Assembly (NCBI GenBank): GCA_017305935.1
Contig: JAFKJU010000040.1
Span: 1 to 45,825, forward strand
Source of the DNA: Hyphomicrobiales bacterium
GTDB taxonomy: Bacteria > Pseudomonadota > Alphaproteobacteria > Rhizobiales > Rhizobiaceae
Length of the DNA stretch: 45,825 nt
Direction: 5' to 3'
Position numbers and translations under genes: made by a program. Below the pieces are notes generated by a model that saw nothing but the letters and a program-made list of their open reading frames with translations, made no database searches and was not told the DNA's origin. This document shows, piece after piece, positions 17,122-19,327 of the stretch; the stretch's first letter is position 1, and every line of letters begins with the position of its first letter.

Positions 17122-17167
17122 AGCATGTCGCGCAAAACTGTGCAGCGGTTTTGCGACAACGGCATGC
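17122..17167. repeat. Dispersed imperfect palindrome, family A variant
   Basis: AGCATGTCGCGCAAAACTG ... CGGTTTTGCGACAACGGCATGC: the same plan as the other family A copies but with CATGTCGCGCAAAA arms. It lies between the ROK kinase stop and the DUF1349 start. Confidence 0.7.
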
Positions 17168-17271
17168 GAAAAATCAAAGACCTGAAACGCACGATCGGAT
17201 CTGAGGGGATCGCGACGCGCTTCAGGCGCAGATCGCCGTTTGAGGAAAGCGGTTTCGGCGTGTTTCAGGCG

Positions 17272-18396
17272 TCACTTGCGCTCGGTCCGGGTCTTCGGTT
17301 TCTTCTGAGGCTTCTTGTCCTCTGGCGCGGGCCGATTGCTGAAATGGGCGTTGCCGAGGCCGGTGCCGATGGTCAGCACGGCCCAATGCTGGACATCCTG
17401 CATGAACGGCACCTGCGAAAGCCCTTGCACGACCGCATCATTGTGCATGATGACGAAGGTATCATGGCCGCCGATCTGCGGGATCGCCTTGGTCAGCGCT
17501 TCGGGCAGGTTGAAACGCTCGCTTTCCCAGTTGCCGCCGGGCAGGTTCTGGCCGCCGCGCAGGATCGAGCCATCGGCGTCGATGATGCCGGGGCAGGCGA
17601 TGCCGATCACTGGAGCGGGCACGAGTTTCGCCTTGTCGGCCTTGGAGACCAGCGTGTCGATCATCTCCACCAGCCGCTCGATGGAGGTGCCCCGGCGCGG
17701 ATCGTCGTCGGCGTGACGCCAGATATCGGATTTCCACACGCGGGCGCGGGAAAAATCCGCCGCATCCTTCTGGCGAAGCTCGACGATGCCGGCGCGGATA
17801 TTGGTGCCGCCGATGTCGACGGCGACGATGGCGTCGTGGCCCTTCATCATCCAGGGCGGCATCAACTGCACCGCGCCGATCAGGCCGGCATCGTCGGAAT
17901 GCTGGCGGATGATCGACAGCTCCGTGCGGATGCCCTCGGCGCGCAGCAAAAGCTGGGTGCGGGCAATGGCGAGCGCGCCGATGTGGCTTTGCTTGAAACC
18001 GCCGCCAATGGCGATGCGCTCGGTCTTCTTCCAGCGATCCTCCTTCATGAAGCGCTGGATGACGCCGGCGAACGCGGCGGCGTAATCATCGATCGCGCCG
18101 AGGATCAGCGCTGTCGCCAGCGGCTCCTCGCCGGAAAACAGGGCGTCGAGCTGCTTCTTGGAGAAATCTCGGGTCGGGGTCTCGCCGAGCGGATCGGGCC
18201 CGGCGCGGCGCACGCGCTTGCGCCAGTCCTCAAGCCTATCGGAAAAGGCGGACTTGCAGGCGCGGTCGCCGATGAAGCCGTCGCCATCCTTGATTTCGAG
18301 ATTGTAGTCGTCGACCGTTACCGCCGGCAATTCGGCCGCCCCGTGGACGATCGGTGCGGCAACCTCTTCGACCTGCTTCTTTCTGATTTTCGCCAT
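17272..18396 (-). CDS. ROK-family sugar kinase homologue with circularly permuted motif order
   Basis: A 374-residue cytoplasmic protein of the ASKHA/ROK sugar-kinase superfamily. In ordinary ROK kinases the order is DxGGT, PG, NLPG, ND, GTG, then GGG and the final DDAGLIGA. Here IAIGGG (128-133) and DDAGLIGA (168-175) come first, and DIGGTNIRAG (194-203), ACPG (267-270), QNLPGGNW (283-290), HND (318-320, probable catalytic Asp320) and IGTGLGNAHF (343-352) follow. The chain thus seems permuted, with new ends between the GTG loop and the adenosine-side helices. The usual ROK zinc motif (CxCG..GC) is absent. The tail is Lys/Pro-rich. ATG 18396 is chosen because MAKIRKK is followed at once by conserved-looking sequence; the frame is open to 18711. 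It is divergent from otsB. Substrate unknown. Confidence 0.85.
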   Translation of the reverse strand: MAKIRKKQVEEVAAPIVHGAAELPAVTVDDYNLEIKDGDGFIGDRACKSAFSDRLEDWRKRVRRAGPDPLGETPTRDFSKKQLDALFSGEEPLATALILGAIDDYAAAFAGVIQRFMKEDRWKKTERIAIGGGFKQSHIGALAIARTQLLLRAEGIRTELSIIRQHSDDAGLIGAVQLMPPWMMKGHDAIVAVDIGGTNIRAGIVELRQKDAADFSRARVWKSDIWRHADDDPRRGTSIERLVEMIDTLVSKADKAKLVPAPVIGIACPGIIDADGSILRGGQNLPGGNWESERFNLPEALTKAIPQIGGHDTFVIMHNDAVVQGLSQVPFMQDVQHWAVLTIGTGLGNAHFSNRPAPEDKKPQKKPKTRTERK

Positions 18397-18532
18397 GCGT
18401 CCCCCGCGTTTGCAACCCCGATCGGTGACGAGAAACGCGTGGAGAGGACGGTGGTTCCGTGGCATCGCCGCCCGGCGGAAAGAAAGCGATTTTGCCCTTG
18501 CCCTCACGGGGCGCTGACCTAGATCGGCTGTC

Positions 18533-19327
18533 ATGCACGCAACCGATTTTCCCATCGGCGCCCTTGCTTCACCGGAAGCGGTCTTCCACGATCTCGGCCG
18601 GAACCCCGGCCGCTGGGCGTTGTTCCTCGACATCGACGGCACGCTGCTCGACCTTGCGCCGACGCCGGACACCATCCAGGTGCCCACAAGCCTGCCGACC
18701 GACCTGCACAATATCTCGGCGCATTTGAACGGGGCGCTGGCACTGGTTACCGGCCGGGCGCTGGTCTATGCCGACAGCCTGTTCCAGCCGTATCATTTTC
18801 CCATCGCTGGCCTGCACGGGGCGGAGATGCGCGGCTCCGACGGCACCATCCTGCCGGCCCTGGTGACGCCGGCCTTCGCGGCGTTGAAGCGCAGCCTCGC
18901 CGAACGCGCCTCCGTGATGAAGGGCGTTGTCGTGGAGGACAAGGGGGCGGCGATTGCCGCGCATTATCGCCTCGCGCCGGAATTCGATGAACCGCTCGGC
19001 GATCTCATGCGTGATTTCGTCGCGCAGGCCGGCGATGGCTGGGTGCTGCAACTCGGCAAGATGGTCTATGAAATCCGCCCGGCAAAATCCAGCAAGGGCG
19101 AGGCGGTGGCCCGCTACCTGCAGGAGCCGGTATTTGCCGGCCGGCGGGCGCTGGCGCTCGGCGACGACCTGACCGACGAATCGATGTTTTCCGCCGTCAA
19201 CGCAATGGGCGGCTATTCGATCCGCGTCGGCTCGGGCGAGGTGAAAACCGCGGCGCTCGGCCGCCTCGCCTCGCCGGAGGCGGTACGGCAGACGCTGGCG
19301 GCGCTGGCAGCCGGAAAACCGATCTGA
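18533..19327 (+). CDS. otsB: Trehalose-6-phosphate phosphatase
   Basis: HAD-superfamily enzyme that dephosphorylates trehalose 6-phosphate to trehalose, an osmoprotectant. The 264-residue protein has motif I LFLDIDGTLLD (Asp33 nucleophile, Asp35), motif II LVTGRAL, the cap-region segment AGLHGAEMRG, and motif IV LALGDDLTDE. Trehalose-6-phosphate synthase (otsA), often adjacent, is not in this window. It is divergent from the permuted ROK kinase, with 136 bases between the starts. Confidence 0.94.
   Translation: MHATDFPIGALASPEAVFHDLGRNPGRWALFLDIDGTLLDLAPTPDTIQVPTSLPTDLHNISAHLNGALALVTGRALVYADSLFQPYHFPIAGLHGAEMRGSDGTILPALVTPAFAALKRSLAERASVMKGVVVEDKGAAIAAHYRLAPEFDEPLGDLMRDFVAQAGDGWVLQLGKMVYEIRPAKSSKGEAVARYLQEPVFAGRRALALGDDLTDESMFSAVNAMGGYSIRVGSGEVKTAALGRLASPEAVRQTLAALAAGKPI

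Follow-up and report, generated by a model that had tools for sequence, protein, structure and literature searches.

The window analysed in this study is a stretch of 45,825 nucleotides from a Hyphomicrobiales bacterium (assembly GCA_017305935.1, contig JAFKJU010000040.1). It carries a gene for a ROK-type kinase whose chain is circularly permuted. The adjoining gene, otsB, is divergent and separated from it by 136 bases. The positions of both genes, of the motifs of the kinase and of a putative promoter motif are listed in Table 1. The kinase gene was reported in a first-pass annotation, whose open reading frame, strand, coordinates and motif positions all held. A longer frame, reaching 18711, was not needed, because near homologues also begin at the ATG of 18396 and the promoter motif would fall inside the longer frame. 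A 465-residue open frame on the opposite strand, at 17125-18522 (+), spans the whole kinase gene and is probably a mere by-product of high G+C codon usage.

Table 1. Features of the kinase locus; positions are those of the window.
Feature	Position	Strand	Basis or detail
Circularly permuted ROK-type kinase, CDS	17272..18396	(-)	374 aa, ATG at 18396; N-terminal region and length kept in homologues
Residues 17-187, counterpart of part of the ROK C-terminal lobe (lobe II strand 3 to last helix), at the N-terminus	17836..18348	(-)	N-half profile for residues 77-183; residues 17-76 only in the rotated chain
Residues 188-355, lobe I and lobe II strands 1-2, usually the N-terminal half in ROKs	17332..17835	(-)	Pfam ROK 2-141/294 at residues 191-354
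Adenosine-side GGG motif IAIGGG, residues 128-133	17998..18015	(-)	GGG invariant in 56/56
DDAGLIGA, residues 168-175, last helix of lobe II	17872..17895	(-)	Model and alignment
Phosphate-1 loop DIGGTNIRAG, residues 194-203	17788..17817	(-)	Alignment
Asp320 of the HND motif, presumed catalytic base	17437..17439	(-)	H318 N319 D320 invariant in 56/56
Phosphate-2 loop IGTGLGNAHF, residues 343-352, near the new C-terminus	17341..17370	(-)	Alignment
Putative sigma-EcfG (RpoE2) general-stress promoter motif GGAAC-N16-CGTT	18434..18458	(-)	Starts 62 bases before the ATG
otsB, trehalose-6-phosphate phosphatase	18533..19327	(+)	264 aa; PF02358 E 7.5e-28; TIGR00685 149.1 bits, cut-off 68.05

The distribution of the kinase was determined in several samples of genomes, the window's own being counted in each. 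The permuted kinase was present in 6 of the 61 near genomes and absent from the other 55, which is a patchy distribution. It was found in 16 of 385 genomes of the class. A draw from the phylum, which overlapped in part with that of the class, gave matches in 50 of 398 genomes. Twenty-two of these were full-length (E < 1e-100); the remaining 28 were weak, lay inside the C-terminal half and were in line with ordinary ROKs. Five genomes of this draw that carried the permuted kinase were from outside Alphaproteobacteria (G468, G625, G642, G781, G791). A contig scan confirmed at least 546 of 594 pattern-matching stretches as relatives. By title, the 80 matches listed came from Rhizobium, Sinorhizobium/Ensifer, Phyllobacterium, Shinella, Bradyrhizobium, Alsobacter and other Hyphomicrobiales. 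The kinase was also matched in 207 of 72,556 plasmid records, mostly from Rhizobium (111) and Sinorhizobium (79), with one from Roseateles. Among the 30 plasmid matches listed, the annotation was "ROK family protein", "glucokinase", "hypothetical protein" or no listed gene; for the name "glucokinase" we saw no supporting test. One plasmid match, L096 (Bosea sp. plasmid pNBC550, 527156-527397), is a remnant in two pieces that covers residues 18-99 only (21% of the query), has no listed gene and looks like a decayed copy. Two further homologues, L105 (G182) and L111 (G411), are reported with TAG stops inside.

For the comparison with ordinary ROKs, a canonical ROK profile was built from 30 sequences, namely 34 ROK loci without L154 (not extracted), L004 (wrong strand), and L148 and L150 (incomplete). 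The profile of the permuted family (alignment A3) was built from 56 sequences, the window protein and 55 homologues. Alignments A2 and A3 took 20 of the 80 close loci listed, and 30 of the loci L098-L131 were kept after L105 and L111 (stops inside), L113 (fragment) and L116 (near copy of L115) were left out. The 56 proteins aligned end to end, all in the permuted order. The 55 homologues, which come from many genomes, ruled out a frameshift, an assembly error, a fusion or a strain-specific artefact. As the first-pass annotation had noticed in the window protein, the adenosine-side motifs precede the phosphate-1 loop and the phosphate-2 loop lies near the end of the chain, and this order was kept in all 56 sequences.

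The Pfam ROK family matched the kinase with E 3.5e-8 and 33.8 bits (cut-off 22.9), and the best stretch paired residues 191-354 with profile positions 2-141 of 294. Searched up to E 10, Pfam gave no match whose best stretch fell in residues 1-185. In its native order, the family profile aligned with the canonical ROKs with a score of 61.6 over 137 columns. When it was rotated at residue 188, the score rose to 104.7 over 285 columns, which begin at DxGGT and reach the last helix, and a duplicated chain gave 106.2 over 291 columns. The C-half alone scored 60.9 against the canonical profile. The N-half alone scored 56.9, with residues 77-183 on ROK columns 209-308, while 40 column-shuffled N-halves reached at most 22.4 and the reversed N-half 18.4. 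In 20 trials with the C-half joined to a shuffled N-half, no score exceeded 61.1. When the rotation point was moved along the profile 10 columns at a time, the score was highest at columns 170 and 180 (102.1 and 106.5; residues ~180 and ~190), close to where the joint is predicted. These results demonstrated that the proposed circular permutation is real, and that the permuted kinase is homologous to the ROK kinases with the order of its halves rotated.

Three other comparisons did not add to this. A single-sequence phmmer search of the PDB with rotated L098 gave only marginal matches, of which an antibody chain ranked first (E 0.076). A search with one sequence is too weak, and its result gives the rotation no support. 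In an NCBIfam scan the scores of five rotated sequences barely moved. A comparison of native and rotated protein alignments found only the trivially identical half.

An unrelated domain in residues 1-185 had been named beforehand as the result that would refute the permutation. In that case there would be no permutation, the GGG and DAGLIGA motifs would have arisen by chance, and the added domain would be fused to a truncated N-terminal half of a ROK that is inactive or regulatory. Residues 1-185 are indeed without any Pfam family, and residues 17-76 failed to align with ROKs when the N-half was used alone; it took the rotated chain to align them, and the similarity was low. However, the N-half on its own matched the missing ROK C-terminal lobe in the correct order, at residues 77-183 and with a score well outside the range of the 40 column shuffles, and the predicted fold was single, compact and of high confidence. 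An unrelated domain is contradicted by these data, and we regard it as extremely improbable.

The ASKHA fold consists of two RNase H-like lobes, each with the order b1-b2-b3-a1-b4-a2-b5-a3. An AlphaFold2 model of residues 14-358 was made from the 56-sequence alignment (model numbering plus 13 gives protein numbering). It had a pLDDT of 92.7 and a pTM of 0.91 and formed one continuous domain; it replaced an earlier model from 6 sequences only (pLDDT 66.6, pTM 0.65). In model numbering, the first part consisted of a strand at 13-18, helices from 29 to 103, a strand at 114-119, a helix at 125-140, a strand at 146-149 and a helix at 154-165. The middle comprised strands at 176-182, 187-193 and 206-213, a helix at 222-242, a strand at 247-255 and a helix at 284-291, and the end a strand at 301-306, a helix at 307-313 and strands at 324-330 and 334-341. 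The elements thus ran b3'-a1'-b4'-a2'-b5'-a3', then through all of lobe I, then b1'-b2'. After rotation, both lobes read b1-b2-b3-a1-b4-a2-b5-a3, and the cut falls in lobe II, after its strand 2 and before its strand 3. The expectation of a single ASKHA fold after rotation of the chain was therefore met in the predicted structure, as judged by the order of strands and helices without superposition. By the same element order, the chain ends are predicted to sit where strand 2 of lobe II turns into strand 3. We infer that this turn lies opposite the phosphate-2 turn, at the other end of the two strands. The expectation in the first-pass annotation that both ends would move to the hinge side is a prediction that does not stand as worded.

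We also compared the model with known structures using Foldseek. The 50 matches listed were of the hexokinase, ROK, Ppx/GppA, MreB and Hsp70 types, and all of their TM-scores were 0.43 or lower. Ranks 1, 3 and 4 were two-domain hexokinases (1dgk, 1hkb, 5hex_B), with 423-428 columns and an rmsd of 29.8-34.8 A. We infer that these alignments run over the repeat boundary; the aligned ranges were not shown. Single ROK chains (2yhy, 5nck, 3vov) aligned over 170-173 columns. Some one-domain ASKHA chains aligned in native order too, MreB (8aam) over 302 columns at 5.5 A and human glucokinase (7t78) over 309 columns at 9.7 A. Foldseek by itself is therefore no proof of the permutation. The twofold pseudo-symmetry of the fold may be the cause of these alignments of about 300 columns.

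We next consider the active site. The GGG, DxGG, PG, NLP, HND and GTGLGNA positions were invariant in 56/56 sequences and occurred in that order. On the adenosine and phosphate-1 side, the invariant residues were Gly131-133, Asp168, Asp194, Gly196, Gly197, Asn199 and Arg201. The others were Cys268-Pro-Gly, Asn284-Leu-Pro, Trp290, His318-Asn-Asp320, Gln324 and Gly344-Thr-Gly-Leu-Gly-Asn-Ala350. Phe41, Gly43 and Asp44 were likewise conserved in all 56, and His18 in 55. The catalytic and nucleotide motifs of ROKs (DxGGT, ND, GTGxG and GGG) were all present, and the sole variation among them was at position 198 (41 T, 15 S). From what is known of the ROK family, we take Asp320 to be the catalytic base. 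The invariant motifs are those that a working kinase needs, and activity is inferred from them.

The CxCGxxGCxE zinc motif is a defining feature of the ROK family. In the 56 permuted sequences no Cys was conserved at its place, and the sole invariant Cys column was C268 of the CPG motif. The absence of the zinc motif from the window protein, reported in the first-pass annotation, thus held for the family. It need not follow from the permutation, since five unpermuted ROKs, which in this study we named PPGK-like, lack the zinc cysteines too. This set comprised L170, L199, L201, L188 and L203 (L200 and L202 of the original seven failed the extraction pattern), and all fell below the cut-off of the polyphosphate glucokinase model NF045942, with at most 110.6 of 250 bits. 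The five form a second unusual ROK class, short and zinc-less, which is present in the window's own genome as L203 (G000:C40:15327-15989) and in other genomes of the class as L188, L199, L170 and L201.

A FastTree tree, midpoint-rooted, was built on the uncontested half with 82 rows (63 ROK rows of 73 domains, 5 PPGK-like and 14 permuted). The 14 permuted rows formed one clade (local support 0.999) with long branches. This clade was sister to the five PPGK-like ROKs with weak support (0.813). As this sister group is zinc-less, the loss of the zinc cysteines, judged from sequence, probably predates the permutation. The C-half scored 77.5 against the PPGK-like group and 60.9 against the canonical ROKs, values that are only roughly comparable because the profile depths differ. 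Rotation gained little against the PPGK-like group, with 80.6 for the native family and 88.8 for the rotated one over 177 columns crossing the joint. There, HGaaELPsV of the joint aligned on phmELAHhP and GFIGDRA on the yvG region. The N-half alone did not align to this short group, and its score of 18.3 was inside the shuffle range.

The promoter region of the kinase was compared with that of its homologues. The strict pattern GGAAC-N15-18-CGTT occurred three times in the window, both strands counted. Within 300 bases upstream, the strict motif was found in 67 of the 80 close homologues listed, compared with 32 of 5386 background windows, each 300 bases long and taken from these loci. The other 13 loci comprised ten from Shinella with GGAAC-N16-CATT, one from Bradyrhizobium with a match that has one mismatch and two from Alsobacter without any match. 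A relaxed pattern gave no gain over the strict one among the 80 loci (67/80) and matched 88 of the 5386 background windows. The 80 loci share ancestry, and these counts are not independent. NepR is the type of anti-sigma partner that EcfG has, and the window's genome encodes one (PF18557, 51 bits, cut-off 25.7). GGAAC-N16-CGTT is given as the motif for sigma-EcfG1 of Rhizobium etli in the part of that report available to us (PMC3892343).

The OtsB match was present in 48 of the 80 listed loci, and in 45 of the 80 it was divergent within 700 bases; contig boundaries truncated some of the loci. In Sinorhizobium meliloti (ml46), the adjoining divergent gene was an NAGGN osmoprotectant peptidase gene. 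The strict motif occurred within 400 bases in only 6 of 29 loci from more distant relatives, a set that includes five loci from outside the class. The window's OtsB had no match among the open reading frames within 4 kb of the kinase in 12 more distant loci. Thus, the more distant relatives mostly lack the promoter motif and the otsB linkage. Some of their neighbours look like stress proteins by eye, namely L233 5341-6054 (+), L235 6768-7079 (-), L083 2248-2874 (+) and L093 7935-8453 (-), which we take to resemble ferritin-like/YciE-type, BON-domain, general-stress and DUF4142-like proteins.

Previous reports, each available to us only in part, described otsBA as RpoE2-mediated in Ensifer aridi (PMC8877191), included the trehalose-6-phosphate pathway in the sigma-EcfG regulon of Bradyrhizobium (PMC8092242), and stated that most RpoE2-dependent genes of S. 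meliloti have no predicted function (PMC6180224). Our literature search found no paper on RpoE2 or the general stress response together with the ROK family, and nothing useful on polyphosphate glucokinase and Rhizobium. ROK and glucokinase had zero mentions in the main text, as far as it was available, of the general-stress papers; their supplementary tables were outside our scope, and RpoE2 dependence may stand there.

The sugar site was examined through the GExGH motif, which serves in sugar binding in ROKs and is absent from the kinase sequence. When aligned with PPGK-like ROKs, its Glu and His fell on positions 22 (E in 15/56) and 25 (S in 31/56), which were not conserved; with canonical ROKs they fell on a gap and on position 20, in a region where the alignment was ambiguous. 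The sugar site is therefore changed, and the substrate may not be glucose. On sequence grounds alone, no substrate can be assigned.

Many ROK proteins are regulators, and the main rival to a kinase is a permuted ROK fold without catalysis, acting as a sugar- or nucleotide-responsive sensor or as a protein partner in the stress response. The missing GExGH, the variable residues where it would lie and the linkage of the gene to a stress-type promoter motif are compatible with such a sensor. A sensor does not account for the invariance of Asp320 and of the phosphate-1, phosphate-2 and adenosine motifs in 56/56 sequences from more than one class, and no DNA-binding family was among the Pfam matches. 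We therefore consider a non-catalytic role unlikely and retain the kinase.

A second alternative keeps the permuted kinase and changes its chemistry: the substrate would be a polyol, an amino sugar or another precursor of a stress solute, or polyphosphate would be the phosphoryl donor. The sugar-site region is unlike that of canonical ROKs, the PPGK-like ROKs adjoin the permuted clade in the tree, and the osmoprotectant gene adjoins the kinase in S. meliloti. The PPGK model was also the best NCBIfam match for 3 of 5 rotated sequences, but the scores on NF045942 were far under the cut-off of 250 bits (18.7 for the native sequence and 18.1-26.0 for the five rotated ones). In addition, the NLP-GNW and HND motifs resemble those of hexose kinases. 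A non-hexose substrate or a polyphosphate donor is accordingly possible but rather doubtful.

Taken together, we think it likely that the window encodes a single-domain ROK-type ASKHA kinase that went through one ancient circular permutation and that in rhizobia is most likely induced by EcfG/RpoE2, with a role in stress and trehalose metabolism. Homology, permutation, a single clade in our sample, intact catalytic motifs, the promoter motif and the otsB linkage in close relatives were observed by computation, and what follows on activity, substrate, promoter use and role is inferred only. Circular permutation by duplication is the usual model. The old chain ends would have been joined by a short linker at about residues 179-188, and new ends would have arisen directly after the phosphate-2 hairpin, where a loop connects strands 2 and 3 of lobe II. 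The phosphate-1, phosphate-2 and adenosine motifs would still hold ATP in the usual ROK cleft, and the phosphoryl group would be transferred to a sugar-like hydroxyl with Asp320 as the base. In rhizobia, the general stress sigma factor EcfG/RpoE2 most likely switches the gene on. The kinase then most likely acts in stress and in the metabolism of the compatible solute trehalose, where one task could be to phosphorylate glucose again. With ATP (or polyphosphate) as the donor, it would perhaps turn glucose from trehalose turnover into glucose-6-phosphate. This substrate step is the weakest part of the proposed mechanism.

A wider reading can be offered only tentatively. The permuted kinases may be an undescribed ASKHA clade that arose once, before it spread through Alphaproteobacteria and other classes, and that was recruited to the stress response in rhizobia, with a remodelled sugar site, a new substrate or donor (possibly polyphosphate) and access or control through the lobe II loop. 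If this is true, stress turns on a kinase whose opened lobe II loop gives new access or control. We found no publication, among open-licence PMC papers, on a natural circular permutant of a ROK, of an ASKHA (actin/hexokinase/Hsp70) protein, of a glucokinase or of a hexokinase. The permuted kinase is abundant and conserved in many soil bacteria, yet the annotation "ROK family protein" conceals it, since standard profiles cover no more than one half of the chain. With it, the general stress regulon of Alphaproteobacteria gains a likely kinase target, and one can test whether the cut in lobe II alters domain closure.

Among known systems, the canonical ROK kinases (PF00480; N-acetylmannosamine kinase, 2yhy; Thermus hexokinase, 3vov) share the phosphate-1, PG, NLP, ND, phosphate-2, GGG and final helix motifs with the permuted kinase and are homologous to it over the 285 profile columns aligned after rotation. 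In contrast to them, its chain is rotated, without CxCGxxGCxE and without GExGH, and the canonical motif order of phosphate-1, phosphate-2 and adenosine is not met, since the adenosine side comes first. We class the permuted kinases as a permuted sister clade, which should work like the ROKs but fails the motif order and the zinc motif. The PPGK-like ROKs of Alphaproteobacteria also lack the zinc cysteines, resemble the joint region (mELAH...yvG...W) and adjoin the permuted kinases in the tree. They differ in being unpermuted, in their length of ~220-250 aa and in keeping E(L/I)AH (DLAH in L201), and the permuted N-half does not align with them.

The two-domain hexokinases (human HK1/HK2; 1dgk, 5hex) have the ASKHA fold as well, and their two-repeat chain holds the permuted order across the repeat boundary, which we take as the reason for their high Foldseek rank. 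They differ in being duplicated and much longer, and the sequence matches to them were short and weak; they offer an analogy to a tandem intermediate and no close kinship. The ribokinase-type fold is unrelated to ASKHA. An alignment that is likewise non-sequential and segment-swapped joins two sugar kinases of that different fold, ADP-dependent glucokinase and the ribokinase-type 2-dehydro-3-deoxygluconokinase, according to the part of that report available to us (PMC2213659).
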